DNA of 64,000 nucleotides from Pseudomonadota bacterium (GTDB lineage: Bacteria; Pseudomonadota; Alphaproteobacteria; Rhizobiales; Xanthobacteraceae), in the NCBI GenBank assembly GCA_003576765.1, contig QEVP01000001.1, positions 1 through 64,000 on the forward strand, written 5' to 3'. Of this stretch, positions 4,944 to 47,151 are shown in pieces (positions within the stretch are counted from its first letter, which is position 1; every line of letters begins with the position of its first letter). A program made the position numbers and the translations under genes. The notes beneath the pieces are model-generated. The model saw nothing but the letters and a program-made list of their open reading frames with translations, made no database searches and was not told the DNA's origin.

Positions 4944-5153
4944 ATGAGCAAGCTCAACATCGACGACATTCGCGCGATGAGCGAAGACCAGATGACCGAC
5001 GCCATCGCCGGGCTGAAGAAGGAGCGCTTCAACCTGCGCTTTCAGCGCGCCACCGGCCAGCTGGAGAACACCGCGCGGCTGCGCGAGGCGCGCCGCGACA
5101 TCGCCCGCATCAAGACCGTTGCCGCGCAGAAGCGCGCCGCCAAGACCAAGTAA
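4944..5153 (+). CDS. rpmC: 50S ribosomal protein L29
   Basis: 69 residues, two helices, with the conserved [20 protein letters not shown] region. L29 lies next to L23 at the exit tunnel. It sits 11 nt after rplP and 10 nt before rpsQ. Confidence 0.97.
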
Positions 5154-5163
5154 GGGGCCAACG

Positions 5164-5409
5164 ATGCCGAAACGAACCCTTCAGGGCGTCGTCGTCAGCG
5201 ACAAGCAGAACAAGACCATTGTCGTGCGCGTCGATCGCCGCTTTACCCATCCGCTCTACAAGAAGACGATCCGGCGCTCGAAGAACTACCACGCCCACGA
5301 CGAGAACAACGAGTTCAAGGTCGGCGACGTGGTGTGGATCGAGGAATCCCGGCCGCTTTCGAAACAGAAGCGCTGGACCGTGGTCCAGAGCGAGAAGAAG
5401 ACAGCTTAA
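5164..5409 (+). CDS. rpsQ: 30S ribosomal protein S17
   Basis: 81 residues from ATG 5164 ([14 protein letters not shown]). The OB-fold protein contains the family stretch [19 protein letters not shown]. It binds 16S rRNA early in 30S assembly. The 44-nt spacer to rplN shows no clear structure. Confidence 0.97.
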
Positions 5410-5453
5410 CGCAGCGCTAGAGGCGCAGCAGAGAAAGAGGACGAGGTGCATCA

Positions 5454-5822
5454 ATGATCCAGATGCAGACCAACCTCGACGTGGCCGACAATTCAGGCGC
5501 ACGCCGTGTCATGTGCATCAAGGTGATTGGCGGGTCCAAGCGCCGGTATGCCACGGTCGGCGACGTCATTGTCGTGTCGGTCAAGGAAGCCATTCCGCGC
5601 GGCAAGGTGAAGAAGGGCGACGTCATGAAGGCGGTCGTCGTGCGCGTGGCGAAGGATATCCGCCGCCCCGACGGCTCGGTGATCCGCTTCGACCGCAACG
5701 CCGCCGTGCTGGTCAACAACCAGTCGGAGCCGGTCGGCACCCGCATCTTCGGACCGGTGCCGCGCGAACTGCGCGCCAAGAACCACATGAAGATCATTTC
5801 GCTGGCGCCGGAGGTGCTGTGA
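5454..5822 (+). CDS. rplN: 50S ribosomal protein L14
   Basis: 122 residues, exact family length, beginning [18 protein letters not shown]14 sits on the 50S face that meets the 30S and binds RsfS. Its stop overlaps the rplX start by one base. Confidence 0.98.
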
Positions 5823-6130
5823 TGGCCGCGAAAATCCGCAAGGGCGACAAGGTCGTCGTGCTGACCGGTCGTGACAAGGGCCGCACCGGCGAGGTGTTCG
5901 AGGTGCGCCCGGCCGAGGGCCGCGCGCTGGTGCGCGGCATCAACATGGTCAAGCGCCACCAGAAGCAGACGCCGAACCAGGAAGGCGGCATCATCTCCAA
6001 GGAGAGCCCGATCCACCTGTCGAATATCGCCATCGTGGGCAGCGACGGCAAGCCGACCCGCGTCGGCTTCAAGATCCAGGCGGACGGCAAGAAGGTGCGT
6101 ATCGCCAAGCGCACGGGAGCGGAAATCTGA
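5822..6130 (+). CDS. rplX: 50S ribosomal protein L24
   Basis: 102 residues with an N-terminal KOW motif ([18 protein letters not shown]). L24 starts 50S assembly by binding the 5' end of 23S rRNA. It overlaps the previous stop and the next start by one base each, so rplN-rplX-rplE are tightly coupled. Confidence 0.97.
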
Positions 6131-6687
6131 TGGCTGACACTGCTTACGTGCCGCGCCTGCGCGGCGAATACGATCGCAAGATCCGTGGCCAGCTGACGGA
6201 GAAGTTCGGTTACGCCAACGTCATGGAAGTGCCGCGCCTCGACAAGGTCGTCATCAACATGGGCGTCGGCGAGGCCGTCAACGACCGCAAGAAGGTCGAG
6301 CTGGCCGCCGCCGATCTCGCGCTGATCGCCGGCCAGAAGCCGATTATCACCTATTCGCGCAAGGCGATCTCCACCTTCAAGCTGCGCGAGAACCAGCCGA
6401 TCGGCTGCAAGGTGACGCTGCGCAAGGCGCGGATGTACGAGTTCATCGACCGCCTGGTGACGGTGGCGCTGCCGCGCGTGCGCGACTTCCGCGGGCTCAA
6501 CCCGAAGAGCTTCGACGGCCGCGGCAACTATTCGCTCGGCCTCAAGGAGCACATCATTTTCCCCGAGATCAACTTCGACAAGATCGCGGAGACCTGGGGC
6601 ATGGACATCACGGTCTGCACCACGGCGAAGACCGACGAGGAGGCGCGCGCATTGCTCGCCGCATTCAAATTCCCGTTCCGGCAGTGA
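6130..6687 (+). CDS. rplE: 50S ribosomal protein L5
   Basis: 185 residues. The NMGVGEA and FPEINFDKI motifs are typical of L5. It binds 5S rRNA and contacts the P-site tRNA and S13. It is coupled to rplX by a TGATG overlap. Confidence 0.98.
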
Positions 6688-6730
6688 GCCGCTGACAGCA
6701 GCTCAAACGCGGAAACGTAAGGAGCCACAC

Positions 6731-7036
6731 ATGGCGAAGAAGAGTTCGATCGAGAAGAACAACCACCGCAAGCGGCTGGTGAAGAACGCCGCCGCCAAGC
6801 GCGCGCGTCTCAAGGCGATCATCGCCGACAAGAAGCTGCCGCTGGAGGAGCGTTTCGCCGCGAGCCTCAAGCTCGCCGAGATGCCGCGCAATTCCTCGCC
6901 GACCCGCATCCGCAACCGTTGCGAGGTCTCCGGCCGTTCGCGCGCCGTCTACCGCCTGCACAAGCTCTCCCGTATCGCGCTGCGCGAGATGGGCTCCAAG
7001 GGTCTGGTGCCGGGCCTGGTGAAGTCGAGCTGGTAA
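6731..7036 (+). CDS. rpsN: 30S ribosomal protein S14, zinc-free type
   Basis: 101 residues, the long Cys-poor form found in proteobacteria. The C-terminal region has [15 protein letters not shown] with a single Cys, so it cannot form the CxxC zinc ribbon of the short S14 form. It is preceded by a 43-nt spacer with AAGGAG near 6720. Confidence 0.97.
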
Positions 7037-7050
7037 GGGGAGCGCAAGGC

Positions 7051-7449
7051 ATGTCCGTGAACGATCCGATCAGCGATCTCATCACCCGCATCCGCAACGC
7101 GCAGATGCGCAACAAGGCCAAGGTCTCCTCGCCGGGGTCGCGCATGCGCGCCAACGTGCTCGACGTGCTCAAGGCGGAAGGCTACATCCGCGGCTATGCC
7201 AGCGTGGAGCATGCCGGCGGCCGCAGCGAGCTGGAGATCGAGCTGAAGTATTTCGACGGCGAGCCGGTGATCCGCAACATCGAGCGGGTGTCGAAGCCGG
7301 GGCGGCGGGTCTATGCCTCGGTGAAGAACCTGCCGCGCGTCAACAACGGTCTCGGCATTTCGGTGCTTTCGACGCCGAAGGGAGTGATGGCCGACCACGA
7401 CGCCCGCGAGGCGAACGTGGGCGGCGAGGTCCTCTTCACGGTGTTCTGA
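7051..7449 (+). CDS. rpsH: 30S ribosomal protein S8
   Basis: 132 residues from ATG 7051. It begins [19 protein letters not shown] and carries the C-terminal [14 protein letters not shown] signature. S8 is a primary 16S rRNA binder and in E. coli the translational repressor of the spc operon; whether it does that here is unknown. Confidence 0.98.
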
Positions 7450-7470
7450 GGATTTTGAAGGGATAAAGCC

Positions 7471-8004
7471 ATGTCTCGTATCGGCAAGCGGCCGGTCGGC
7501 ATCCCCTCGGGCGTCACCGCGACGGTCGATGGGCAGACCGTGACTGTGAAGGGGCCGAAGGGCCAGCGCCAGTTCGTTGTTCACGACGACGTTGAGGTGA
7601 AGTTCGAGGACGGCGCCGTCACGGTGGCGCCGCGGTTCGAAACCAAGCGGGCGCGCTCGCTCTACGGCACTTCGCGCGCGCAGGTCGCCAACCTGGTCGA
7701 AGGCGTCACCAAGGGTTTTGAGAAGAAGCTGGAGATCGTCGGCGTCGGCTATCGCGCGGCCCTGCAGGGCAAGAACCTGCAGCTCACGCTCGGCTTCAGC
7801 CACGACGTGGTCTATCCGGTGCCGGAAGGCATCTCGATCGCCGTGCCGAAGCCGACCGAGGTGGTCGTCACCGGCAGCGATCTGCAGCGCGTCGGTCAGG
7901 TCGCGGCGGAAATCCGCGGTTATCGGCCGCCGGAGCCGTACAAGGGCAAGGGCGTCAAGTACGTCGATGAATTCGTCTTCCGCAAGGAAGGCAAGAAGAA
8001 GTAA
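7471..8004 (+). CDS. rplF: 50S ribosomal protein L6
   Basis: 177 residues, duplicated L6 fold. [15 protein letters not shown] and the C-terminal [13 protein letters not shown] motif are intact. L6 lies near the sarcin-ricin loop on the 50S subunit. Confidence 0.98.
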
Positions 8005-8015
8005 CGGAGCCGGTC

Positions 8016-8372
8016 ATGTCGAAGCTCAACGTCACCAACGCCCGGCGCAAGAAGCGCGTCCGGCTGTCGCTGCGCCGCGCCGGCAACGGTCATCCGCGGC
8101 TGTCTGTGTTCCGCTCGTCCAAGCACATCTATGCCCAGGTCATCGACGATGCCAAGGGCGAGACGCTGGCCTCGGCCTCGTCGCTGGAGAAGTCGCTGCG
8201 CGGCACGACCGGCGCCGATGTCGACGCGGCGCGCGCGGTCGGCAAGCTGGTGGCCGAGCGGGCGGTCAAGAACGGCATCAAGAACGTGGTGTTCGATCGC
8301 GGCGCCTATCTCTATCACGGCCGCGTCAAGGCGCTGGCCGATGCGGCGCGCGAGGGCGGGCTGACTTTCTGA
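8016..8372 (+). CDS. rplR: 50S ribosomal protein L18
   Basis: 118 residues. The basic N-terminus ([12 protein letters not shown]) and [14 protein letters not shown] region are family features. With L5 it binds 5S rRNA. The next gene is 81 nt away, the longest gap inside the spc block, and that gap holds a perfect hairpin. Confidence 0.97.
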
Positions 8373-8375
8373 ACA

Positions 8376-8399
8376 CGATGGGCGCAGCCGCGCCCATCG
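8376..8399 (+). other. Perfect 10-bp hairpin between rplR and rpsE
   Basis: CGATGGGCGC (8376-8385) pairs fully with GCGCCCATCG (8390-8399) around the 4-nt loop AGCC. It starts four bases after the rplR stop. The sequence after it is A/G-rich, not T-rich, so simple termination is unlikely. A processing or mRNA-stability role is inferred. Confidence 0.6.
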
Positions 8400-8453
8400 A
8401 GACGAACGGATTGAAGACAGAGGCGCAACGCCTCGCAAGGATTGGACAGCACC

Positions 8454-9029
8454 ATGGCAGGTGAACGCGAACGCGGCGGCCGGGACCGCAACAGGGATCG
8501 CGAGGAGCGCGACAGCGAGTTCGTCGACAAGCTCGTGCACATCAACCGCGTCGCCAAGGTCGTCAAGGGCGGCCGGCGCTTCGGTTTTGCGGCGCTGGTG
8601 GTCGTCGGCGATCAGAAGGGCCGCGTCGGCTTCGGCCACGGCAAGGCGCGCGAGGTGCCGGAGGCGATCCGCAAGGCGACCGACTCGGCCAAGCGCAACC
8701 TGACCCGCGTGCCGCTGCGCGAGGGTCGCACGCTGCATCATGACGTCGCCGGCCGTCACGGCGCCGGGAAGGTGTATCTGCGCGCGGCGCCGGCCGGCAC
8801 CGGCATCATCGCCGGCGGTCCGATGCGCGCGGTGTTCGAGACGCTGGGCATGGCCGACGTGGTGGCCAAGTCGGTCGGCTCGTCCAACCCCTACAACATG
8901 GTGCGCGCGACGTTCGATGCGCTCAAGCGCCAGGATTCGCCGCGGTCGGTTGCCAACCGCCGCAACCTCAAGGTTTCGACGCTGCAGGCGCGCCGCGTGG
9001 GCGGCGATGCCGAGGCGGCGGCCGACTGA
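8454..9029 (+). CDS. rpsE: 30S ribosomal protein S5
   Basis: 191 residues from ATG 8454 ([15 protein letters not shown]). An in-frame TTG at 8442 exists, but the ATG gives the usual alphaproteobacterial start. The N-terminal double-stranded-RNA-binding-like domain has [20 protein letters not shown]5 takes part in translational accuracy at the mRNA entry channel. Confidence 0.97.
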
Positions 9030-9054
9030 CGAATTTCGCCGGAGGGCTTAAGAT

Positions 9055-9249
9055 ATGGCCAAGGCCGCCAAAACCATCACGGTCGAGCAGACCGCGAGCA
9101 GCATCCGCCGCCACCAGTCGCAGCGTGCGACGCTGATCGGCCTCAAACTCAACAAGATCGGCCGCACCGCCGAGCTGCCGGACACGCCCGAGGTGCGCGG
9201 AATGATCTATAAGGTCCGCCACCTTGTGCGGGTGGTCGGCGACGCCTAA
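9055..9249 (+). CDS. rpmD: 50S ribosomal protein L30
   Basis: 64 residues, usual size for the short bacterial L30, with [20 protein letters not shown] and the [12 protein letters not shown]-terminal strand. It lies between rpsE (25 nt) and rplO (53 nt). Confidence 0.96.
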
Positions 9250-9302
9250 TTGTCCGCGTGGCTGAGCTGACGCGAGACCGCACGGGACGAAGGAACGGAA
9301 CG

Positions 9303-9794
9303 ATGAAACTCACTGACATTGCCGACAACGCCGGCTCGCGCAAGAAGCGCACGCGTATCGGCCGCGGCATCGGCTCGGGCAAGGGCAAGACCGGCGGCCG
9401 CGGCGGCAAGGGCCAGACCGCGCGCTCGGGCGTGCGCATCAAGGGTTTTGAGGGCGGCCAGATGCCGCTGCATCGCCGCCTGCCCAAGCGCGGCTTCAAC
9501 AACATTTTCCGGCTCGATTTCGCCGAGATCAACCTTGACCGTCTGCAGCAGGCGATCGACGCTAAGCGTCTCGATCCGGCCAAGACCATCGATGCGGCGG
9601 CGCTGGTTGCCGCCGGTGTCCTGCGCCGTGCCGGCGACGGCGTGCGGCTGCTCGGCCGCGGCGAACTCACCGCCAAGGTCACGCTTGAAGTTCATGGCGC
9701 CTCCAAGGCCGCGGCCGCCGCGGTCGAGAAGGCCGGCGGCTCGATCAAGATACTTGCGCGCGAGGCGGCGGGCGACGACAAGGCGGCCTCGTAA
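9303..9794 (+). CDS. rplO: 50S ribosomal protein L15
   Basis: 163 residues from ATG 9303. The Gly/Lys-rich N-terminal segment ([20 protein letters not shown]) and [17 protein letters not shown] are diagnostic. L15 is a late-assembly 50S protein. A 100-nt spacer separates it from secY. Confidence 0.97.
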
Positions 9795-9820
9795 GGGGCT
9801 TCCCCCGGCGGCGCGGCGCG

Positions 9821-9846
9821 TCATGCCCGATTGGCTTCGGACATGA
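9821..9846 (+). other. Imperfect hairpin in the rplO-secY spacer
   Basis: TCATGCCCGA (9821-9830) pairs with TCGGACATGA (9837-9846) with one mismatch and a 6-nt loop. It lies 48 nt before the secY start and lacks a T-tract. It resembles the common Hyphomicrobiales CGTCATGCCCG palindromic unit. Function unknown. Confidence 0.4.
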
Positions 9847-9894
9847 GGCGGATCGCCGGCGCGGCCGGGGACGCATGATAAGGATCTCGTGTCC

Positions 9895-11226
9895 ATGGCC
9901 TCTGCGGCGGAACAACTTGCGGCCAACCTGAACTTCTCGGCCCTTGCCAAGGCCGACGAACTGAAAAAGCGCATCTGGTTCACGCTGGGTGCGCTCGTCG
10001 TCTACCGGCTCGGCACCTACATTCCGCTGCCCGGCATCGACCCGGCGGTCTGGAGCCAGGTGTTCCGCCAGCAGGCCGGCGGCATTCTCGGCATGTTCAA
10101 CATGTTCTCCGGCGGTGGCATCGACCGCATGGCGATCTTTGCGTTGAATATCATGCCGTACATCTCGGCGGCGATCATTCTGCAACTTCTGCAATCGGTG
10201 TCGCCCAAGCTCGAGGCGCTGAAGAAGGAAGGCGAGGCTGGCCGCAAGGTCATCAACCAGTACACGCGCTATCTGACGCTGGTGCTGGCGGCGTTGCAGG
10301 CTTACGGCATCGCCATCGGTTTGCAGGGTGCCGGCAACGTCGTCAGCCAGCCGGGGCCGTTCTTCCTTCTTTCCACCACGATCACGCTGACCGGCGGCAC
10401 CATGTTCCTGATGTGGGTGGGCGAGCAGATCACCGCGCGCGGTATCGGCAACGGCATCTCGCTGATCATCATGGCGGGTATCGTCGCCGAACTGCCCTCG
10501 GCCATCGTCGGCACGCTGGAACTCGGACGGCAGGGCGCGCTGTCCACCGGGCTGATCCTCGGCATTCTGGTGATGGCGGTCGCCGTGATCGGCATCATCG
10601 TGTTCGTCGAGCGGGCGCAGCGCCGGCTCCTGATCCAGTATCCGAAGCGCCAGGTCGGCAACAAGATGTTCGAGGGCCAGTCCTCGCATCTGCCGCTGAA
10701 GCTCAACACCTCGGGCGTCATTCCGCCGATCTTCGCCTCCTCGCTGCTGCTGCTGCCCGGGACGGTCGCCAACTTCAACGCCGGCGCAGGGCCGGAGTGG
10801 TTCCAGTGGCTGACCACGCAGCTTAGTCACGGCCGGCCCGCCTACCTCATCCTGTATCTCGGGATGATCGTGTTCTTCACGTTCTTCTACACCGCCGTGG
10901 TGTTCAACCCGACCGAGACAGCCGACAACCTGAAGAAGCACGGCGGCTTCATTCCCGGCATCCGTCCGGGCGAGCGCACCGCCGAATACATCGATTATGT
11001 GCTGTCACGCATCACCGTGGTCGGCGCCATCTATCTGGCGCTGGTCTGCCTGGTGCCCGAAATCCTGATCTCGTACGCGTCGGTACCGTTCTACTTCGGC
11101 GGCACCTCGCTCCTGATCGTGGTCAGCGTGACCATGGATACGGTGGCGCAGGTTCAGGGCTACCTGCTGGCGCACCAGTATGAAGGGTTGATCCGGAAGT
11201 CGAAGGGGAAGGGGCGACGGCGATGA
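9895..11226 (+). CDS. secY: Preprotein translocase subunit SecY
   Basis: 443 residues from ATG 9895; an in-frame GTG at 9889 is the alternative. AAGGA at 9880-9884 could serve either, and the ATG matches the family start [12 protein letters not shown]. SecY forms the ten-helix protein-conducting channel of the inner membrane with SecE and SecG. Hydrophobic segments are spread through the chain. The cytoplasmic loop [12 protein letters not shown] and [20 protein letters not shown] are typical. It is coupled to adk by an ATGA overlap. Confidence 0.97.
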
Positions 11227-12293
11227 GGCTTATTCTTCTCGGGCCGCCGGGGGCCGGCAAGGGAACACAGGCCAAGCGGTTGGTGGAGCGCCACGGCATC
11301 GTCCAGTTGTCGACCGGCGACATGCTGCGGGCGGCCGTTGCAGCCGGCACGCCGGTCGGCCTCAAAGCCAAGGATATCATGGCGAGCGGCGGTCTCGTGC
11401 CGGACGAGGTGGTGATCGGCATTATCTCCGAGCGCATCGATCAGCCCGACGCGGCCGGCGGCTTCATCCTCGACGGCTTTCCGCGCACCGTGCCGCAGGC
11501 CGAGGCGCTGACCCGGCTTCTCAAGGAGAAGGGCCTCAAGCTCGACGCGGCCGTCGAACTGCGCGTCAACGAGGGCGTGCTGCTGCAGCGGGTCGAGACC
11601 CGTATCGCAGAGATGACCGCGCGCGGCGAAAGCGTGCGCGCCGACGATAATGCCGAGGCGCTGGCCAAACGGCTCGCTGCCTATCGCGCCCAGACCGCGC
11701 CGCTCGTGGACTACTACGCGGAGAAGCGTCTTCTCGCCACGGTGGACGGCATGAAGTCGGTCGAGGAGGTATCGGCCGATATCGCGGCGATGCTGGAGGC
11801 GATGACTGCTACCGCGTCGGTGCCCCGGTCGCGCGCGAAGGCCAAAGCCAGGAAAGCCAAAGCCAAGACGCCGGCCGTACGTCCGAAGGCCAAGGCGTCC
11901 AAGGCAAAGACGGCATCCGGGGCCAAGGTTTCGAAGGCCAAGGTTGCGAAGGCTAAAACCGCCAAGGCTGCCAAGGGGAAGGCTGCCAAGGGGAAGGCGG
12001 CCAAGGCGAAGGCGGCCAGGACAAAGGCGACCAAGACCCGGTCCGCTACGGCCAAGCGGGCTAAAGCCACGCCCGCAAAGGGTCGCAAGGCAAGTTCGGC
12101 AAAAGCTGTAAAGAAGCCAGCCAAGTCTTTGAAGTCGCCTACCAAAAAGAAGGTTGCCAAGGCCCGTAAGCCGGCCGCGGGAGCCACCAGAGGCAAGGCC
12201 GTGAAAAAGGCCAAAGCCGCCAAGCGCGCCCCGGTCCGCAAGGTCACGAAGAAGCGAGCGGGAGCGGCGAGGCGGTTGACGCGACGACGCTGA
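11223..12293 (+). CDS. adk: Adenylate kinase with a long histone-H1-like basic C-terminal tail
   Basis: 356 residues. Residues 1 to about 193 are a complete short-lid adenylate kinase (ATP + AMP to 2 ADP): P-loop GPPGAGKGT at 7-15, [10 protein letters not shown]-binding segment, LDGFPRT motif, RADDN near the lid. Residues 194-356 form an extension with no Asp or Glu by my count, about 45 Lys and 18 Arg, and many KAK/AKA steps, like bacterial H1-like proteins. The frame continues without a stop from the kinase into the tail, and codon use stays normal. Usual alphaproteobacterial Adk is about 190-220 residues. The start overlaps the secY stop (ATGA). The tail could bind nucleic acid or ribosomes; that is inference. 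Confidence 0.93.
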
Positions 12294-12304
12294 ATCCTTA
12301 TTAA
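12276..12304 (+). promoter_or_regulatory. Candidate sigma-70 promoter for rpsM-rpsK
   Basis: TTGACG (12276-12281) and TATTAA (12299-12304) are separated by exactly 17 nt. The -35 matches five of six consensus bases and the -10 four of six. The element straddles the last codons of adk and lies about 145 nt before rpsM, the first gene of the alpha operon. The bases are seen; promoter activity is inferred. Confidence 0.5.
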
Positions 12305-12447
12305 CACCGGCATCTATTGGACAGATTCCAACGATGCCGGGCCTCACGAGACTGATCGGGGCCGGCGTCGCGTTCGTGTTTGCGGGCCTCGTTCCCCAGA
12401 AATAACAGCATTGCCGGCCTCAATGGTCGGAAACAGGAGAGACAGCC

Positions 12448-12816
12448 GTGGCCCGTATCGCCGGCGTGAACATTCCGACCAACAAGCGCGTGCTGATCGC
12501 GCTGCAGTATATCCATGGCATCGGCCCCAAAAGCGCGGCCGAGATCGTGGAGAAGGTGAAGATTCCGCACGATCGCCGCGTGATGCAGTTGAGCGATCAG
12601 GAAGTGCTGCAGATCCGCGAAGTGATCGACCGCGACTACATGGTCGAGGGCGACCTGCGCCGCGAGGTCGGCATCAACATCAAGCGTCTGATGGACCTTG
12701 GCTGCTACCGCGGCCTGCGCCATCGTCGCGGCCTGCCGGTACGCGGCCAGCGTACCCACACCAACGCCCGTACCCGCAAGGGGCCGGCGAAGGCGATCGC
12801 GGGCAAGAAGAAGTAG
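12448..12816 (+). CDS. rpsM: 30S ribosomal protein S13
   Basis: 122 residues from a GTG start at 12448, with AGGAGA 8-13 nt upstream. The product reads [15 protein letters not shown] and has the [15 protein letters not shown]-terminal motif. S13 contacts P-site tRNA and L5. The 154-nt gap before it separates the alpha operon from adk. Confidence 0.97.
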
Positions 12817-12937
12817 GCAGGCGTCCGGTCCGGGCTTTTGGCAGGGCATGTCCCGGCCGTCCGCGCTGGTCCTGTTGTCTGCATTGGTGGAGCCGCTGGC
12901 ATAACGGCGGTGTCGAGATCGAAAGAAGGACCCTTTA

Positions 12938-13327
12938 ATGGCCAAGGAAGTCGCCCGCGTCCGCCGTCGCGAACGCAAGAATATCGCCTCCGGCGTGGCG
13001 CATGTGAACTCGTCGTTCAACAACACGACCATCACCATCACCGACGCGCAGGGCAATGCCATCGCCTGGTCGTCGGCCGGCACGATGGGCTTCAAGGGCT
13101 CGCGCAAGTCCACGCCGTATGCGGCGCAGGTCGCCGCCGAAGACGTTGCCAAGAAGGCGCAGGAACACGGCATGCGCACGCTGGAGGTCGAGGTCGCCGG
13201 TCCCGGTTCGGGCCGCGAATCGGCGCTGCGGGCGCTGCAGGCGGCGGGCTTCACCGTCACCTCGATCCGTGACGTGACCGCGATCCCGCATAACGGCTGC
13301 CGCCCGCGCAAGCGTCGGCGCGTTTAG
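12938..13327 (+). CDS. rpsK: 30S ribosomal protein S11
   Basis: 129 residues, family length. [14 protein letters not shown] and the final [13 protein letters not shown] are signatures; the Asn-Gly before Cys can form isoaspartate in other bacteria. S11 lies on the 30S platform. A terminator-like hairpin follows 10 nt after the stop. Confidence 0.97.
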
Positions 13328-13336
13328 AGGTAAGAC

Positions 13337-13369
13337 CCGCCGTTGTCACAAGGGCTTCGGCGGTTTTTT
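13337..13369 (+). terminator. Intrinsic terminator or attenuator between rpsK and rpoA
   Basis: CCGCCG (13337-13342) pairs with CGGCGG (13358-13363) and is followed directly by six T (13364-13369). This is the standard Rho-independent layout. It lies between two genes normally cotranscribed, so it may be leaky or regulated. rpoA starts 133 nt later. Confidence 0.65.
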
Positions 13370-13502
13370 GAATGCACGGTGCGCGGTCCGATCCGCGCGC
13401 TCCAGCGCCGGATGGTTGCGCGGCCGATCCGCAACGCGTCCGGCGAGGCAAGCCGGACAGATGGCCCCGTCCGGCGGCCTCTGACACAGGGCTGGCACAA
13501 GA

Positions 13503-14534
13503 ATGGGTGATACAGTGACGATCCAGAAAAATTGGCAGGAACTCATTCGTCCCAACAAGCTTCAGGTGACCCCGGGCAGCGACCCGAGCCGGCTTGCGAC
13601 GCTGGTCGCCGAGCCGCTTGAGCGCGGCTTCGGCCAGACACTCGGCAACGCGCTGCGCCGCATCCTTCTGTCGTCGCTGCAAGGAGCGGCGGTGCAGTCG
13701 GTGCACATCGACGGCGTGCTGCACGAGTTCTCCTCGATCGCCGGCGTGCGCGAGGACGTCACCGACATCGTGCTCAACATCAAGGACATCGCGATCAAGA
13801 TGCAGGGCGAAGGCCCCAAGCGCATGGTCGTGAAGAAGCAAGGGCCGGGCGCCGTCACTGCCGGCGACATCCAGACCGTCGGCGACATCGCGATCCTCAA
13901 CCCCGACCTGCAACTTTGCACGCTGGACGACGGCGCCGAGATCCGCATGGAGTTCACGGTCAACACCGGCAAGGGCTATGTCGCCGCCGAGCGCAACCGC
14001 CCCGAGGATGCGCCGATCGGCCTGATCCCGGTGGACAGCCTGTACTCGCCGGTGCGTCGCGTCTCCTACAAGGTCGAGAACACCCGCGAAGGCCAGATCC
14101 TCGACTATGACAAGCTGACGATGACGGTCGAGACCAACGGCGCGCTGACGCCGGAGGATGCGGTCGCCTACGCCGCGCGCATCCTGCAGGACCAGCTCAA
14201 CGTGTTCGTCAACTTCGAGGAGCCGCGCAAGGAAGTCGCCGCCGAAGTCATTCCCGATCTCGCCTTCAACCCGTCCTTCCTCAAGAAGGTGGACGAGTTG
14301 GAGCTGTCGGTGCGCTCCGCCAACTGCCTGAAGAACGACAACATCGTCTATATCGGCGATCTCGTGCAGAAGTCGGAAGCGGAGATGCTGCGCACCCCGA
14401 ACTTCGGCCGCAAGTCGCTGAACGAGATCAAGGAAGTGCTGGCCCAGATGGGCCTGCATCTCGGCATGGAAGTGCCGGGCTGGCCGCCGGAGAACATCGA
14501 CGAACTGGCCAAGCGCTTCGAGGATCACTACTGA
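13503..14534 (+). CDS. rpoA: DNA-directed RNA polymerase alpha subunit
   Basis: 343 residues. The N-terminal domain (to about 235) has [17 protein letters not shown] for dimerisation and beta/beta' assembly. The C-terminal domain (about 255-325) carries the helix-hairpin-helix [14 protein letters not shown] that binds UP elements and activators. Length and motifs are normal. It lies 175 nt after rpsK and 121 nt before rplQ. Confidence 0.98.
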
Positions 14535-14549
14535 TCCATTTTCATCGCC

Positions 14550-14571
14550 ATGGCCGGCACTATTCGGCCAT
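14550..14571 (+). other. Hairpin between rpoA and rplQ
   Basis: ATGGCCG (14550-14556) pairs with CGGCCAT (14565-14571) around an 8-nt loop. No T-tract follows. It is one of several hairpins in the longer gaps of this ribosomal block. Confidence 0.4.
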
Positions 14572-14655
14572 CGCATCCCGGGCGAACGCAGGAAGCCCAC
14601 CTGAATGGCCTGAGTGGCGTGCGCCGCGACATGGCAGACAAACGAGGATGACGAC

Positions 14656-15075
14656 ATGCGTCACGGAAAAGTCCACCGCAAGCTCAACCGCACTGCCGAG
14701 CATCGCCGCGCGATGTTCGCCAACATGGCGGCGGCGCTGATCAAGCACGAGCAGATCGTCACCACGCTGCCGAAGGCCAAGGAACTGCGCCCGATCGTCG
14801 AGAAGCTGGTGACGCTCGGCAAGAAGGGCGGGCTGGCGCTGCGTCGCCAGGCGATTGGCGAGCTGCGCGACCGGGATCAGGTCAAGAAGCTGTTCGAGGT
14901 GCTGGCTGAGCGCTACAAGGACCGCAACGGCGGCTATACCCGCATCATCAAGGCCGGCTTCCGCTATGGCGACAATGCGCCGATGGCCGTGATCGAGTTC
15001 GTCGATCGCGACGTCGATGCTAAGGGGCAGGATTCCGGTCCGGTGCCCGAGGCGGCTGAGACCGAGGCGGCATGA
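14656..15075 (+). CDS. rplQ: 50S ribosomal protein L17
   Basis: 139 residues from ATG 14656 ([20 protein letters not shown]). The open frame to 14614 is ignored because 14656 gives the invariant L17 start. The final ~20 residues are an acidic, alphaproteobacterial-type tail. Its stop overlaps the next gene (ATGA). Confidence 0.97.
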
Positions 15076-15800
15076 CGCGCCGGCCGAGGCCGGATGGACG
15101 ATCGAGGGCGGCGCGCGGCGTCGCCCTTTTCGTTTGGGCGGTGATCGGGCTGGCCGCGGCCGGCTGGATGGCGGAGGGATTGGGCATGGCGCAAGCGGAC
15201 AAGCAGGCGGGGATGGCGCTGATCCACGCGGCGGAGCGTGGCGATGTTGCCCGCGTCGCCGAGCTGGTGCGTGCCGGCGTTTCGCTCGACGCGCGCGACA
15301 CGCGTGGCCGCACCGCGCTGCTGGCGGCGACCGAAGGCGATCGCGTCGAGGTGGCGCGCGCACTGATTGCCGCCGGCGCCGACGTCAACGCCAAGGACCG
15401 TATCAGCGACAGCCCGTTCCTCTATGCCGGCGCCGAGGGCCGCAATGCGATCCTCAAGCTCATCCTGACCTCCGGCCGCGCCGATCTCGCCAGCACCAAC
15501 CGCTATGGCGGCACCGCGCTGATCCCGGCCGCCCATCATGGCCACGTCGAGACTGTGCGCATCCTGCTCGGCACCGCGATCGATATCGATCACGTCAACA
15601 ATCTCGGCTGGACCGCGCTGTTGGAAACCGTGATCCTCGGCGACGGCGGGCCGGTGCATACCGATATCCTGCGCCTCCTGGTCGAAGCCGGTGCTGACGT
15701 CAACATCCCCGACCGCAACGGCGTGACGGCGCTGGCGCACGCCCGCAGCCGCGGTTTTGCGGCGATGGCCGATAGTCTGATGCGCGCCGGGGCGCGCTGA
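15072..15800 (+). CDS. Exported ankyrin-repeat protein
   Basis: 242 residues. An Arg-rich start and a hydrophobic stretch (about 17-37) ending near MAQA look like a signal peptide or membrane anchor; an internal ATG at 15186 would remove it. From about residue 47 to the end there are five or so ankyrin repeats, with recurring units such as [20 protein letters not shown] and GADVNAKD. Such proteins mediate protein-protein contacts. It overlaps the rplQ stop by ATGA, so it is translationally coupled to the alpha operon. A gene for an HtrA protease follows 70 nt on. The partner is unknown. Confidence 0.85.
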
Positions 15801-15870
15801 GGAAGCTTTATCGCGCGGGCTACCGGCACCCCATAAAAGCGCTATATATCAGGGCTGTTCAGACGGAATC

Positions 15871-17271
15871 ATGCGCATGCCGACCGCTCCCGCCGCCCGC
15901 GTCATTCTCGCCGCCCTCGCTCTCCTGGTGGCCCTGCCGGCCGCCGCGCAGGAGCGCCGCGTGCCGGCGTCGGCGCAGGACGTGCGGCTATCCTACGCGC
16001 CGATCGTGCAGCGGGTGACGCCGGCCGTCGTCAACGTCTATGCGGCCAAGACCATGCCGCGCAATCCGCTGCTCGACGATCCGGTGTTTCGCCGCTTCTT
16101 CGGCGTGCCCGGCCAGTCGCCCGAGCAGGTGCAGCGCTCGCTCGGCTCCGGCGTCATCGTCGACGAGCGCGGCTTGGTCGTCACCAACAATCACGTCATC
16201 GAGGGCGCTGATCAGGTCAAGGTCTCGCTCGCCGACAAGCGCGAGTTCGAAGCCGAGATCGTGCTGAAGGATACCCGCACCGACCTCGCGGTGCTGCGCA
16301 TCAAGGCCCGCGAAAAGTTCCCGAAGCTCGACTTCGCCGATTCCGACGGCCTGCTGGTCGGCGACGTGGTGCTGGCGGTCGGCAATCCGTTCGGCGTCGG
16401 CCAGACGGTGACGCAGGGAATCGTCTCGGCGCTGGCGCGCACGCAGGTCGGCATCAGCGACTACCAGTTCTTCATCCAGACCGATGCCGCGATCAATCCG
16501 GGCAACTCCGGCGGTGCGCTGGTGGACATGGCCGGCAAGCTGGTCGGCATCAACACCGCGATTTTTTCGCGCTCCGGCGGCTCGCAGGGCATCGGCTTCG
16601 CGATCCCCGCCAACATGGTGCGGGTGGTGGTGGCCTCCGCCGAGCAGGGCGGCAAGGCGGTGGCGCGGCCCTGGCTGGGCGCGCGGCTGCAGACGGTGAC
16701 GGCCGATATCGCCGAGACGCTGGGGCTGGCGCGCCCGACCGGCGCGCTGGTGGTCAACGTGGTGCCGGGCAGCCCGGCGGCGCGCGGCGGCTTGAAGATG
16801 TCCGACCTCATCACGGCGGTGGACGGCCAGCAGATCGACGATCCCAATGCCTTCGGTTATCGCTTCGCGACCCGGCCGCTCGGCGGCACGGTGACGGTCG
16901 AGGTGATGCGGGGCGGGCGGGCGGTCAAGCTCGCCATTCCGCTTGAGGCTGCACCCGATACCGGACGCGACGAAATCACAATCGCGTCGCGTTCGCCGTT
17001 CCGTGGCGCGAAGGTCGCCAATATCTCGCCGGCATTGGCCGACGAACTGCGGTTGCAGGGCGATCCGGAGGGCGTGGTCATCGTCGATCTGCCTGACGAT
17101 TCCACCGCGGCCAATGTCGGGTTCCAGAAGGGTGACGTGATCCTCGCGGTCAACGGCCAGAAGATCGCGACCACCGCCGACCTCGCCCGCGCCACCCGTG
17201 AGCCGAGCCGGCTGTGGCGCATCACCGTGGTGCGGGGCGGCCAGCAGATTTCCGTCATGCTTGGCGGATAG
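15871..17271 (+). CDS. Do/HtrA-family periplasmic serine protease
   Basis: 466 residues. Signal peptide with likely cleavage after ALPAAAQ (about 27). The trypsin-like domain has the full triad: His108 in TNNHV, Asp138 in TDLAV, Ser213 in GNSGG. Two PDZ domains follow (about 270-350 and 375-460). HtrA/Deg proteases degrade or refold damaged envelope proteins. The short linker and lack of a long Q-loop are closer to DegQ/DegS-like forms than to E. coli DegP, so I give no symbol. The segment just before the start is A/T-rich (TATATA near 15843-15849) but no -35 is clear. Confidence 0.93.
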   Translation: MRMPTAPAARVILAALALLVALPAAAQERRVPASAQDVRLSYAPIVQRVTPAVVNVYAAKTMPRNPLLDDPVFRRFFGVPGQSPEQVQRSLGSGVIVDERGLVVTNNHVIEGADQVKVSLADKREFEAEIVLKDTRTDLAVLRIKAREKFPKLDFADSDGLLVGDVVLAVGNPFGVGQTVTQGIVSALARTQVGISDYQFFIQTDAAINPGNSGGALVDMAGKLVGINTAIFSRSGGSQGIGFAIPANMVRVVVASAEQGGKAVARPWLGARLQTVTADIAETLGLARPTGALVVNVVPGSPAARGGLKMSDLITAVDGQQIDDPNAFGYRFATRPLGGTVTVEVMRGGRAVKLAIPLEAAPDTGRDEITIASRSPFRGAKVANISPALADELRLQGDPEGVVIVDLPDDSTAANVGFQKGDVILAVNGQKIATTADLARATREPSRLWRITVVRGGQQISVMLGG

Positions 17272-17303
17272 GTCACTCCGGCCAACCACGTCCCCTTCCT
17301 TTT

Positions 17304-17407
17304 CCCTCCCCCGCAAGCGGGGGAGGGTAGGGTGGGGCGGGTGAGACGCGGATACCCGCGACATAGCCGTTCGATAGAACGCCGTTCTTCGAACGGTTAT
17401 GCGCGGG
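17304..17407. repeat. Two palindromic intergenic elements before rarA
   Basis: The first is an 11-bp stem, CCCTCCCCCGC (17304-17314) with GCGGGGGAGGG (17317-17327). The second spans 17355-17407: CCGTTCGA-t-AGAAC pairs with GTTCT-TCGAACGG around a GCC loop, flanked by CCCGCG/CGCGGG. These look like the REP-type palindromes scattered in Hyphomicrobiales genomes. They can also act as transcript ends for the HtrA gene. Confidence 0.65.
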
Positions 17408-17460
17408 CATGACGGAGGAGGGAATTTGCCGGACCTGCTTCGGCAACGACAGGTAGCAAC

Positions 17461-18792
17461 ATGGCGGAGCGGCGGAAGCAAGCATCACCAACCCTGTTCG
17501 CGGCGGCGGGCCTGGAGCGCGACGCGCCGCGGCCGTTGGCCGAAAAGCTGCGGCCGCGCACGCTCGCCGAGGTTGTCGGGCAGGATCATATCCTTGGTCC
17601 CGACGGGGCGCTGACCCGCATGCTGGACACGCGCACGCTCGGCTCGCTGATCCTGTGGGGACCGCCGGGCACCGGCAAGACCACCGTGGCGCGGCTGCTG
17701 GCGGACGCGACCGAACTGCATTTCGAGCAGATTTCAGCGGTGTTTTCCGGCGTCGCCGATCTCAAGAAGGTGTTCGATGCGGCGCGGGCGCGGCGCGAGA
17801 CCGGCACCGGCACGCTGTTGTTCGTGGACGAGGTGCATCGCTTCAACAAGGCGCAGCAGGATTCCTTCCTGCCGGTGATGGAGGATGGCACCGTGGTGCT
17901 GGTCGGCGCCACCACCGAGAATCCATCGTTCGAACTGAACGCGGCGCTGTTGTCGCGGGCGCGCGTCCTGGTGTTCAATTCGCTCGACCCCGACGACATC
18001 GAAAAGCTGTTTTCCCGCGCCGAGGCAATCGAGGGCCGCAAGCTGCCGCTCGATGCCGAGGCACGCGCCGTCTTGGTGCGCATGGCTGATGGCGACGGCC
18101 GCGCCGCGTTGACGCTTGCCGAAGAAGTGTGGCGCGCTGCGCGTGCCGACGAGGTGTTCGGCGCCGTCCAGTTGCAGGAGGTTTTGCAGCGGCGCGCGCC
18201 GATCTACGACAAGTCGGCCGACGGCCATTACAACTTGATCTCGGCGCTGCACAAGGCGGTGCGCGGGTCCGACCCGGACGCGGCGCTGTATTACCTAGCG
18301 CGGATGCTTGATGCCGGCGAGGACCCGTTGTTCCTCGCCCGCCGCGTCGTGCGCATGGCGGTCGAGGATATCGGCCTGGCCGACCCGCAGGCGCTCATTA
18401 TCGCCAATGCCGCCAAGGACGCTTACGACTTCCTCGGCTCGCCCGAAGGCGAACTCGCCCTTGCGCAAGCCGTAATCTACGTCGCGACCGCGCCCAAATC
18501 CAACGCCGGCTATAAAGCCTTCGGCGCGGCCATGCGCGCGGCAAAGGAGCATGGCTCTCTGTTACCGCCGCGCCACATCCTCAACGCTCCGACCAAGTTG
18601 ATGCGCGAGGAAGGGTACGGCGCGGGTTACGAGTACGATCACGACACCCCGGAAGGGTTTTCCGGGCAGGATTACTTCCCCGAGGCGATGGGGCGGCGAA
18701 CGTTTTACGACCCGCCGGAGCGCGGCTTCGAGCGCGAGATCAGGAAGCGGCTCGACTACTGGGCGAAGCTGCGCGCCGCGCGCAAGGCTTGA
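17461..18792 (+). CDS. rarA: Replication-associated recombination AAA+ ATPase RarA (MgsA)
   Basis: 443 residues. Walker A GPPGTGKTT (67-75), Walker B FVDE (121-124), sensor region GATTENPSF, and the C-terminal MgsA/RarA oligomerisation domain with YDKSADGHYN and LLPPRHILNAP. RarA/Mgs1-type ATPases work at stalled replication forks together with SSB. The N-terminal segment TLFAAAGLERDAPRPLAEKLRP is usual. Length agrees with the family (about 440). Confidence 0.96.
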   Translation: MAERRKQASPTLFAAAGLERDAPRPLAEKLRPRTLAEVVGQDHILGPDGALTRMLDTRTLGSLILWGPPGTGKTTVARLLADATELHFEQISAVFSGVADLKKVFDAARARRETGTGTLLFVDEVHRFNKAQQDSFLPVMEDGTVVLVGATTENPSFELNAALLSRARVLVFNSLDPDDIEKLFSRAEAIEGRKLPLDAEARAVLVRMADGDGRAALTLAEEVWRAARADEVFGAVQLQEVLQRRAPIYDKSADGHYNLISALHKAVRGSDPDAALYYLARMLDAGEDPLFLARRVVRMAVEDIGLADPQALIIANAAKDAYDFLGSPEGELALAQAVIYVATAPKSNAGYKAFGAAMRAAKEHGSLLPPRHILNAPTKLMREEGYGAGYEYDHDTPEGFSGQDYFPEAMGRRTFYDPPERGFEREIRKRLDYWAKLRAARKA

Positions 18793-18932
18793 GCCTCGCC
18801 TCTGCGCCGGCGAGAGGGCGGCCAAGAAGGACGTCGAGGGTTTTCATCGAACGAGGCGCAACCTAATTCGACCGAGCGTGTTGGGGGACATGAGGAACGC
18901 AGATCGGGGCTGGCTCATGAAGGAGGCTTCTG

Positions 18933-19385
18933 ATGTGCGACTACAGCCTGCAGCATGTTGCGTCCCGACCGGCTGCCGCCGGTCAGCGGCTGGTGACCAC
19001 CCGGTTTCCGACATCGATGACCCGCGGCTTCACCGAGGTCGGTGAGCCCAACGTCGCGATTTGCCTGATGCCGGGCACGGAGGTGGCGTTCGACCACGAT
19101 GTCGAGGCCGAGCCGAACTTCCCCTTGATGCCGAAACGGCAGATCGGCGAGCGGGTGGCGCGTTTCCGTCAGGTCGCGCTCGACAAGCCGGCCGCGCATC
19201 ACGATGCGCTGGAATTCGCCAGCGGGGAGATCGTGCTGCTCACCCGTCTGGTCGAAGGCCAGACTGCCACCGTCCTGCAACTTCCGCACGGAGCGGTGCG
19301 CGAGGCGGCTGCGCCCGAGCCGGGGATGACTCAAGCCGGGCCGGCACCGATTGCGGCCACGCCCCGGCCCGCGCCGGTACGCTGA
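18933..19385 (+). CDS. Small conserved protein of unknown function (MCDYS family)
   Basis: 150 residues starting MCDYSLQHVASRPA, an N-terminus I associate with uncharacterised proteins of this order. No transmembrane segment or catalytic motif is evident. Residues 1-110 look structured, with alternating polar strands; the last ~35 are Pro/Ala-rich and probably disordered. A Shine-Dalgarno AAGGAGG lies 8-14 nt upstream (18919-18925). It stands alone between rarA and the pseudouridine synthase. Function not known. Confidence 0.75.
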   Translation: MCDYSLQHVASRPAAAGQRLVTTRFPTSMTRGFTEVGEPNVAICLMPGTEVAFDHDVEAEPNFPLMPKRQIGERVARFRQVALDKPAAHHDALEFASGEIVLLTRLVEGQTATVLQLPHGAVREAAAPEPGMTQAGPAPIAATPRPAPVR

Positions 19386-19506
19386 CACGTCAAGGAGGCG
19401 CGCACGGTTCAGTCATGCGCGCCTTACCTGCGCGGGCATCGCGGTTTCGCAGTGACGCGGCCGTGGTTATGAGGTAACAGCGGACGCCACCAACGTGATC
19501 CGTCCG

Positions 19507-20679
19507 ATGAGCCGCCGCGTCCGCAAAGCGCCCACCTCCCGCGCGTCTTCCTCCGCTTCTTCGCCGCCGCGCCGTCCGCGCAAGGCGGGCGCGAAGCCGC
19601 GCGCGCCGTCGCCTGCCGAGGCGCCGCCCAAGACAAACAACAAGCCGAACAAGACAAAAACGCGAAGCGACGCGGAGCCGGCGCTGCCGACGGCGGTTGA
19701 GACCGTGACCGTGACGGCGGACGAAGCAGGCATGCGGGTCGACCGCTTCCTCGAAGCGCGCTTTCCGGGGCTGTCGTTCTCCCACATCCAGCGCATCGTC
19801 CGCAAAGGCGAACTGCGCGTCGATGGCCGTCGCGCCGACAGCAAGGATCGCCTCGACGCGGGCAGCCGCGTTCGCATTCCGCCGCTGCGGCTCGATGCCC
19901 CGCGCGCGCCGGGCCACCTCTCGGAGGTGGAACGGCGCACTCACGATGAATTGCGCGCCATGATCCTGTTCGAGGACGACGACGTCATGGTGCTCAACAA
20001 GCCGGCCGGCCTCGCGGTGCAGGGTGGCTCCGGCACGGTGCGCCATGTCGATCGCATGCTGGAGACGATGCGCGACGCCAAGGGGCAACGGCCGCGCCTC
20101 GTCCACCGCCTCGACAAGGACACCGCCGGCTGTCTGCTGGTGGCCAAGACCCGCTTTGCCGCCTCGGCGCTGACGGCATCGTTCCGACACCGCTCGGCGC
20201 GCAAGATTTATTGGGCGCTGGTCGCGGGCGTGCCCAAGCCGAAGCAGGGCCGCATCTCGACCTATCTCGTCAAGGAGGAGAACGAGGAAGACTCGATCAT
20301 GCGGATCGCGACGCATGGCGACGAGGGCGCGAGCCATGCCGTGACCTACTACGCGGTGGTCGAGACCGCCGCCCAGAAGCTCGCCTGGGTGTCGCTCAAG
20401 CCGGTGACGGGGCGCACCCACCAGTTGCGCGCGCATATGGCGCATATCGGTCACGCCATCGTCGGCGATCCAAAGTACTTCAACAAGGAGAACTGGCAAT
20501 TGCCCGGCGGGCTGCAGAACCGCCTGCATCTGCTGGCGCGCCGCATCGTCGTGCCGCATCCGCGCGGCGGGGTGATCGACGCGACCGCGCCGCTGCCGCC
20601 GCATATGCAGCAATCGTGGAACCTGCTCGGGTTCGATGCCACCCGTTTCGACCCGATCATCGAAGCGCCGGACGCGTGA
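19507..20679 (+). CDS. rluC: RluA-family ribosomal large-subunit pseudouridine synthase (RluC/D-like)
   Basis: 390 residues from ATG 19507; an in-frame GTG at 19495 would add four. Residues 1-65 are a Lys/Arg/Pro-rich disordered extension, longer than usual. An S4 RNA-binding domain follows (about 75-125), then the RluA catalytic domain with HRLDKDTAG at 200-208, the Asp203 nucleophile, and GRTHQLRAHMAHIGH. It isomerises uridines in 23S rRNA. RluC is the likely type from the S4 domain and neighbourhood; RluD is possible. Confidence 0.9.
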   Translation: MSRRVRKAPTSRASSSASSPPRRPRKAGAKPRAPSPAEAPPKTNNKPNKTKTRSDAEPALPTAVETVTVTADEAGMRVDRFLEARFPGLSFSHIQRIVRKGELRVDGRRADSKDRLDAGSRVRIPPLRLDAPRAPGHLSEVERRTHDELRAMILFEDDDVMVLNKPAGLAVQGGSGTVRHVDRMLETMRDAKGQRPRLVHRLDKDTAGCLLVAKTRFAASALTASFRHRSARKIYWALVAGVPKPKQGRISTYLVKEENEEDSIMRIATHGDEGASHAVTYYAVVETAAQKLAWVSLKPVTGRTHQLRAHMAHIGHAIVGDPKYFNKENWQLPGGLQNRLHLLARRIVVPHPRGGVIDATAPLPPHMQQSWNLLGFDATRFDPIIEAPDA

Positions 20680-47100: not shown

Positions 47101-47121
47101 AATTTCACGGCGAAAAGAAAA

Positions 47122-47151
47122 CCCGGACCGCCATCAGCGGTCCGGGCTTTT
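47122..47151. terminator. Bidirectional intrinsic terminator
   Basis: CCCGGACCGC (47122-47131) and GCGGTCCGGG (47137-47146) form a perfect 10-bp stem with a 5-nt loop. CTTTTG follows on the + strand; on the minus strand the stem is followed by TTTTCTTTTC. It lies between the convergent cytochrome and binding-protein genes, 21 nt from the latter's stop, and should end both transcripts. Confidence 0.85.

Follow-up and report, generated by a model that had tools for sequence, protein, structure and literature searches.

A terminator-like hairpin and a conserved leader in the rpsK-rpoA gap of an alphaproteobacterial alpha operon

The gene for the alpha subunit of RNA polymerase, rpoA, stands among genes for ribosomal proteins in the locus described here, which raises the question of how its expression could be set apart from theirs. 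In the stretch of 64,000 nt that was analysed (the window), rpsM, rpsK, rpoA and rplQ follow one another on the + strand; the genes were named by their sequence features. The first-pass annotation had pointed to a GC stem followed by six T between rpsK and rpoA, and had suggested that it could separate the level of alpha from that of the ribosomal proteins by partial termination or by autoregulation. The source assembly is a draft of 2.44 Mb that is 74% complete, and the nearest kin of its rpoA are found in Bradyrhizobium, Rhodopseudomonas, Tardiphaga and related records. The genes that frame the question are:

12448-12816, + strand: rpsM (open reading frame)
12938-13327, + strand: rpsK, encoding ribosomal protein S11, the cistron upstream of rpoA (open reading frame)
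13505-13510, + strand: GGGTGA, probably the Shine-Dalgarno sequence of rpoA (unvaried throughout alignment A1, 34 sequences)
13515-14534, + strand: rpoA, with a probable GTG start at 13515 (start position compared over 107 gaps)

The comparison is based on 107 rpsK-rpoA gaps (105 distinct), of which 80 come from public genomes, 26 from genomes of the family and order, and one from the window. An rpoA match was present in 39 of the 41 family and order genomes, and the loci of 30 of those 39 were used; besides that of the window's own genome these are 29 loci, of which L108, L110 and L112 yielded no gap, leaving the 26. Control gaps were drawn from the same 107 loci (rpsM-rpsK, n=96; rpoA-rplQ, n=94). 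After exclusion of gaps shorter than 60 nt and reduction to sequences under 80% identical in their first 60 nt, the non-redundant sets comprised 62 rpsK-rpoA, 52 rpsM-rpsK and 50 rpoA-rplQ gaps. All 107 gaps have a GTG or ATG at the position of 13515. In the 30 nt before it, an ATGG is in frame in 67, out of frame in 6 and absent in 34. Since the start at 13515 is universal and the upstream ATGG is not, we read GGGTGA as the Shine-Dalgarno sequence and rpoA as probably beginning at GTG 13515 rather than at ATG 13503. The gap of 175 nt given by the first-pass annotation is thus correct up to ATG 13503, and becomes 187 nt with the probable GTG start.

The hairpin itself, hereafter H1, and its T-tract lie exactly where they had been placed, at 13337-13369, and both the fold and the scan back the hairpin:

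13337-13363, + strand: H1 hairpin, CCGCCG-TTGTCACAAGGGCTT-CGGCGG, six G-C pairs (sequence, fold and scan)
13364-13369, + strand: T6 tract, following the H1 stem with no spacer (sequence)

The 5' arm of H1 starts 9 nt past the rpsK stop codon, and the loop of 15 nt contains an inner stem of 3 bp. The 33-mer made up of H1 and T6 folds at -15.7 kcal/mol, compared with -6.97 (sd 2.22) in 200 shuffles, none of which was as stable (z -3.93); with flanks included (13328-13375) the z value weakens to -2.07, and 6 of 200 shuffles were equally stable. When both strands of the 64 kb were scanned for perfect stems (at least 6 pairs including at least 5 G-C, loop 3-16 nt, at least 5 T), H1 was the sole site on the + strand and the - strand had none, the shuffle expectation per strand being 0.6 for five T and 0.11 for six T. 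A standard terminator scan of positions 5000-20000, restricted to loops of 3-8 nt, gave 11 sites against 11.5 expected, that is, no excess, and H1 is missing from it because its loop exceeds that limit. A looser scan of the window (stem of at least 5 pairs, four T) listed 14 entries, one palindrome accounting for two of them. Elsewhere in the window, at 47119-47149, we observed a strong palindrome (10-13 pairs) that has T-runs on either strand and is a candidate bidirectional terminator. The terminator score of H1 is 29.6 by the d'Aubenton-Carafa formula. H1 therefore has both a stable GC-rich stem-loop and a U-tract directly after the stem, as an intrinsic terminator would. No sigma-70-like promoter was found on the + strand of positions 5000-20000 in a scan that covers only the E. 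coli consensus; with no promoter visible, rpoA probably depends on read-through. The 74% complete assembly contains no clear second copy of the rpsK-rpoA gap, and one weak match of 77% elsewhere in it covers gap positions 65-117, outside H1.

A strong stem is present in 54 of the 62 non-redundant rpsK-rpoA gaps, compared with 11.6 in shuffles. It is accompanied by a run of at least four T within 9 nt in 20 of the 62 (0.7 in shuffles) and by a run of at least five T in 8 (0.15 in shuffles); the combination with at least four T is missing in 42, and the T-tract is thus kept in a minority of relatives. Terminator scores exceed 0 in 28 of 62 gaps and 20 in 12 of 62, compared with 8.1% and 1.1%, respectively, of 186 shuffles. 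The 5' arm begins at a median of 9 nt from the rpsK stop (IQR 7-11), and 47 of the 54 strong stems lie at 5-15 nt. The conserved position, T-tracts far above those of shuffles and a positive terminator score bear out the earlier reading of a terminator-like element between rpsK and rpoA. The stem sequence of H1 diverges rapidly among relatives, and four consecutive T soon after the stem occur in two of ten close relatives (L010 and L017), the other eight being without them. The linker that separates H1 from the next hairpin, H2, is rich in T and A in many relatives.

The two other gaps of the operon show how far these features belong to rpoA. Strong stems were found in 38 of the 52 rpsM-rpsK gaps and in 40 of the 50 rpoA-rplQ gaps, with a run of at least four T in 4 and 7 of them, respectively; such a run is commoner after rpsK than after rpsM (p 0.001) or rpoA (p 0.03). 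Terminator scores above 0 occur in 21 of 52 rpsM-rpsK gaps, no different from the 28 of 62 in rpsK-rpoA gaps (p 0.70), and in 14 of 50 rpoA-rplQ gaps, which differ weakly (p 0.08). The mean folding z over the first 50 nt is -2.54 in rpsK-rpoA gaps and -2.66 and -4.13 in the other two. The 5' arm is nearer the stop codon in rpsK-rpoA gaps than in the others (medians of 9 nt versus 18.5 and 14 nt). Within the window, the score is -10.8 for the rpsM-rpsK gap, and no terminator candidate exists in the rpoA-rplQ gap. The rpsM-rpsK and rpoA-rplQ gaps contain similar hairpins, followed by conserved blocks. Because strong stems are also frequent in these gaps, intercistronic hairpins are a habit of the whole operon, and a hairpin of the H1 type is not special to rpoA. 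It is plausible that H1 separates the level of rpoA from that of the ribosomal proteins. Repeat-like palindromes were also seen in the other gaps of several relatives.

The part of the gap that is most specific to rpoA is a leader block further downstream of H1, which in many relatives follows the same plan: H2, CTCCAACGCC, a hairpin H3 closed by GCC/GGC, GGGTGA and the GTG start. In the window it comprises:

13378-13401, + strand: H2, first hairpin of the rpoA leader (covariation in alignment A3, model R2)
13400-13409, + strand: leader motif, here CTCCAGCGCC, the commonest form being CTCCAACGCC (motif count in gaps)
13410-13495, + strand: GC-rich palindromic stretch where relatives have H3 (folds and gap lengths)

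This leader was absent from the first-pass annotation. CTCCARMGCC occurs in 70 of the 107 gaps and exact CTCCAACGCC in 65; no gap is longer than that of the window, which measures 193 nt up to a conserved Ile codon (the others, 44-151 nt). RNAalifold on alignment A1 gave 8 pairs, 2 of them with two-sided change; the hairpins were judged to be misaligned in A1, and trimmed alignments were therefore used instead. Alignment A3 holds 32 of 37 trimmed sequences (L034, L058, L063, L068 and L069 were excluded as having a long linker or being near copies), and L087 yielded no stem for the trimmed alignment. In A3, two-sided changes affect 3 of the 6 pairs of H2 and number 5 cells, compared with 1.3 in shuffles, a value reached by 1 of 500 shuffles; a control with the partners slid by -3 columns also gave 5 two-sided cells, on fewer cells.

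The covariance model R2, built on H2 together with the motif, has the window among its rows and matches it at 13381-13411 with 36.3 bits. Over 96 sources, 32 of which built the model, R2 gave 80 matches, 75 in the rpsK-rpoA gap and 5 elsewhere. The rpoA block is thus a conserved, covarying RNA structure directly 5' of the gene. Over 40 family genomes, R2 matched in 13. The matches between rpsK and rpoA are those of the window's own genome, G352, G018, G015, G005, G354, G366 and G023, at E of at most 1.2e-5, a cut that was chosen after seeing the list and above which stand the seven best-scoring other genomes; the remaining six, at E 9e-5 to 1e-3 and including a second match in G023, lie outside rpsK-rpoA. 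Two of the genomes with a match in place, G018 and G005, are model rows, and G015 shares its form with row L047, which leaves G352, G354 and G366 as clearly new. The family search missed G024, although its gap (L087) has the motif. The element seems to be restricted to part of the family. Rfam gave no match anywhere in the window at gathering scores, and nothing in 12800-13600, which includes the rpsK-rpoA gap, at E up to 5. Mimicry of rRNA or antisense pairing with it was considered and set aside: three forms of the leader were compared with L115 (the 16S gene together with a 6.5-kb stretch starting with it, the remainder being assumed to be the rRNA operon), and the forms of the window and L033 were unremarkable, while the similarity of the L019 form was reached by 10-36 of 200 shuffles.

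We propose a punctuated operon, to which we assign a probability of about 0.5: a leaky terminator (or 3'-end former) at H1 would be followed by a separate leader that sets rpoA independently. What is observed is H1 with its T-tract, a conserved location close to the stop codon, a frequency beyond that of shuffles and, in relatives, a conserved leader containing a hairpin that covaries; we infer that termination occurs and only in part, that rpoA is thereby lowered relative to rpsK, and that the leader has a regulatory role. According to this proposal, the alpha operon of this lineage would be punctuated cistron by cistron. Just past rpsK, H1 with its T-tract would act as a leaky intrinsic terminator, or would form and protect a 3' end, so that only some transcripts would continue into rpoA, and the read-through RNA would bear its own rpoA leader (H2, CTCCAACGCC and H3), allowing independent expression of rpoA. 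A possible refinement is that transcription of rpoA is coupled to translation of rpsK: a ribosome finishing rpsK would come within reach of the 5' arm, some 9 nt beyond the stop codon, so that translation may hinder H1. From the sequence, leaky termination or 3'-end formation appears to be the likeliest role of H1.

The main rival is that H1 is a processing or stability hairpin that shields the 3' end of rpsK mRNA after cleavage of the linker, with H2 shielding the 5' end of rpoA, so that the two half-lives would differ. The absence of a run of at least four T from 34 of the 54 strong stems, the like hairpins after rpsM and rpoA, and the T/A-rich linker of many relatives are in keeping with such a role; the T-runs directly after the stem, 20 versus 0.7 in shuffles, would be needless for the mere guarding of a 3' end, and we hold this explanation possible but tentative. 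For H1 as a partial terminator, the odds are about even. H1 could also be an incidental or mobile palindrome that is tolerated in the gap and has no effect on rpoA, as the fast divergence of the stem sequences and the repeat-like palindromes of the other gaps would suggest. However, place, stem and T-tract all exceed shuffles over the 62 non-redundant gaps, and no clear second copy of the gap turns up in the 74% complete assembly; we regard this explanation as unlikely.

A different view of the leader is that it sequesters the Shine-Dalgarno sequence, CUCC pairing with the GGG of GGGUGA and closing H3, in which case a ligand or ribosome must open it. UCCA-UGGG pairing appears in local folds of many sequences, and in Rhodopseudomonas (L007 and L017) the motif TTCC is matched by the site GGAAGGTGA, a corresponding double change. 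When 60 nt of rpoA are added to the fold, most of the site is paired, though with varying partners (34 sequences, mean unpaired value per base 0.09-0.41, no shuffle control). In the local fold, however, the site is more open than it is with the upstream part shuffled (mean unpaired 0.54 versus 0.37; below its own shuffles in only 5 of 40), so that shuffles contradict sequestration by CUCC in this fold, and we consider it unlikely.

The punctuated-operon proposal leads to the signals at the neighbouring genes:

12353-12480, + strand: Alpha_RBS-like (S4 leader) match over the rpsM start (RF00140, 34 bits, E 2.4e-6)
12880-12927, + strand: rpsK leader block, kink-turn-like, core 12886-12920 (model R1, 61.4 bits, the window being a model row)
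14580-14640, + strand: block before rplQ, GGGCGAACGCAGGAAGCCCACCTG (14580-14603) and the next stretch (element in 73 of 94 rpoA-rplQ gaps)

The match over rpsM stays below the RF00140 gathering score of 38 and is not assigned to Alpha_RBS; sub-threshold matches over the rpsM start occur in four of four further loci (E 0.0005 to 0.14), and in seven of eight other loci a sub-threshold match occurs anywhere in the locus. Despite this Alpha_RBS-like match, rpsD is not located between rpsM and rplQ here. The block before rplQ has no match in Rfam at E up to 10, and is possibly the L17 leader predicted in PMC7247131.

The block just 5' of rpsK has the form GGTG(G/T)AGCCGC...GCGG(C/T)GNN(N)GA(G/T)ATC in 74 of the 96 rpsM-rpsK gaps and is missing in 22, of which 9 have another hairpin form with a common loop. 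A CCCCAGCGTCCGGCATTACGGACGCGCTTGAAGGA-type block was seen in place of the kink-turn form in L041, L047, L056, L064, L068, L069, L072, L086 and L087; it has a similar loop, an altered stem and lacks the GGTG/GATC strands. The model of the rpsK block (R1) matched 10 of 41 order genomes at E of at most 1.8e-6, with one match each; its rows include the window's own genome, G029, G034, G036 and G037, and G329, G335, G339 and G351 are new. An rpsK N-terminus adjoins the match in seven loci, the match of the window lies before rpsK, L127 was read likewise, and the match locus L124 is the same place as L104, one of the gaps extracted, so that the block precedes rpsK in all 10. Class-wide, R1 matched 3 of 289 genomes, namely the window's own and two weak cases (E 6e-4 and 8e-4) whose loci are without an rpsK N-terminus; as the filters were strict and 21 candidates were scored per genome, the lack of further matches carries little weight. 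The helices of the block are paired in 100% of cells, with two-sided change in 1 of 10 pairs, a result reached by 18 of 500 shuffles.

Among the loci selected by the kink-turn pattern, which demands both the GA and an initial G in the bulge, and with some genomes represented twice, position 1n is A in 87 of 87 and position 2n is T in 70 and G in 17, with a bulge of 3 nt in 44 and of 4 nt in 43; the window, L104 and L124 were dropped from this count by the N-terminus filter, though rpsK follows in them. The block is therefore Kt-23-like, having A at 1n, U or G at 2n, and GA at 1b-2b after the bulge. In L115 the plan has a single match, at position 685 within 16S. The window has three over both strands, the rpsK block among them, and a stricter pattern gave two matches there against 0.07 expected. 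We take the stretch of L115 around 685 to belong to helix 23 of 16S. In PMC4316175 and PMC5061560, folding of Kt-23 of 16S rRNA by S11 is cited as unpublished data. Compared with Kt-23, the rpsK block shares the plan (a bulge of 3-4 nt, G/A at 1b/2b, A at 1n, U/G at 2n) and differs in sequence: for the three forms compared, plain similarity to 16S in the sense direction does not exceed that of shuffles, and in antisense 13 and 22 of 200 shuffles reach the level of the L005 form. Given the thin covariation and the lack of significant linear similarity to 16S, control by S11 is a lead only, and the block is a possible S11 autoregulatory leader. As such, it is a directly testable candidate site for S11 autoregulation.

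These signals can be joined to the proposal made for rpoA in a wider and more doubtful reading, in which the alpha operon of Hyphomicrobiales would be run gene by gene: by an S4-type signal at rpsM, a kink-turn mimic of 16S h23 for repression by S11 at rpsK, a new leader with UCCAACGCC at rpoA, and a leader at rplQ, the last three each placed after a leaky terminator hairpin, so that the supply of alpha would be uncoupled from that of the ribosomal proteins at the RNA level. If true, gene-by-gene RNA control would explain independent regulation of rpoA inside a ribosomal operon in Hyphomicrobiales, and a conserved leaky terminator, combined with a leader of its own for rpoA, would provide a concrete and testable means of separating the supply of polymerase from that of ribosomes.

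Methylosinus sporium, for which Term-seq data exist, is a member of the Hyphomicrobiales. In that study (PMC12403871), stem-loop ends with U-tracts make up 22% and those without them 78% of high-stability ends. No title among the papers found describes rpoA/rpsK terminators, S11 leaders or kink-turn leaders of these kinds, and rpoA is not mentioned in the main text of the Bradyrhizobium transcription start site paper (PMC4842269) or, by word search, in that of the Zymomonas paper (PMC7566282). Table 1 of PMC7247131, which is separate from that paper's list of earlier leaders, has none before rpoA and none for S11; it names Alphaproteobacteria for the L2 motif only and gives the L17 motif for Proteobacteria.

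Compared with intrinsic (Rho-independent, L-shaped) terminators, H1 shares the GC stem, the immediate U-tract and the place past a stop codon, and differs in its location inside an operon upstream of rpoA, in its long loop, and in that a run of at least four T is kept in a minority of relatives; being inside the operon, it should be leaky if it is a terminator. With ribosomal-protein leaders, such as the L17 leader predicted before rplQ in PMC7247131, the rpoA block has in common that it is a conserved structured RNA directly 5' of an operon gene. However, the product of the adjacent gene is RNA polymerase alpha, with rplQ next in the operon, and as this product is not a ribosomal protein we do not class the block as a ribosomal-protein leader. 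In E. coli, rpoA likewise lies in a ribosomal operon, where it escapes control by S4 and is independently regulated, and rpsD is sited elsewhere in Alphaproteobacteria, the cause of such diversity being called open, as stated in PMC10931766. This precedent of an S4-independent rpoA makes the present idea a sensible one, though it is no test of it. The locus shares with the alpha operon of E. coli the same neighbours, a possibly set-apart rpoA and, here below the cut-off, an Alpha_RBS-like signal at rpsM; it differs in having no rpsD between rpsK and rpoA, and in the hairpins and conserved blocks present in each gap.
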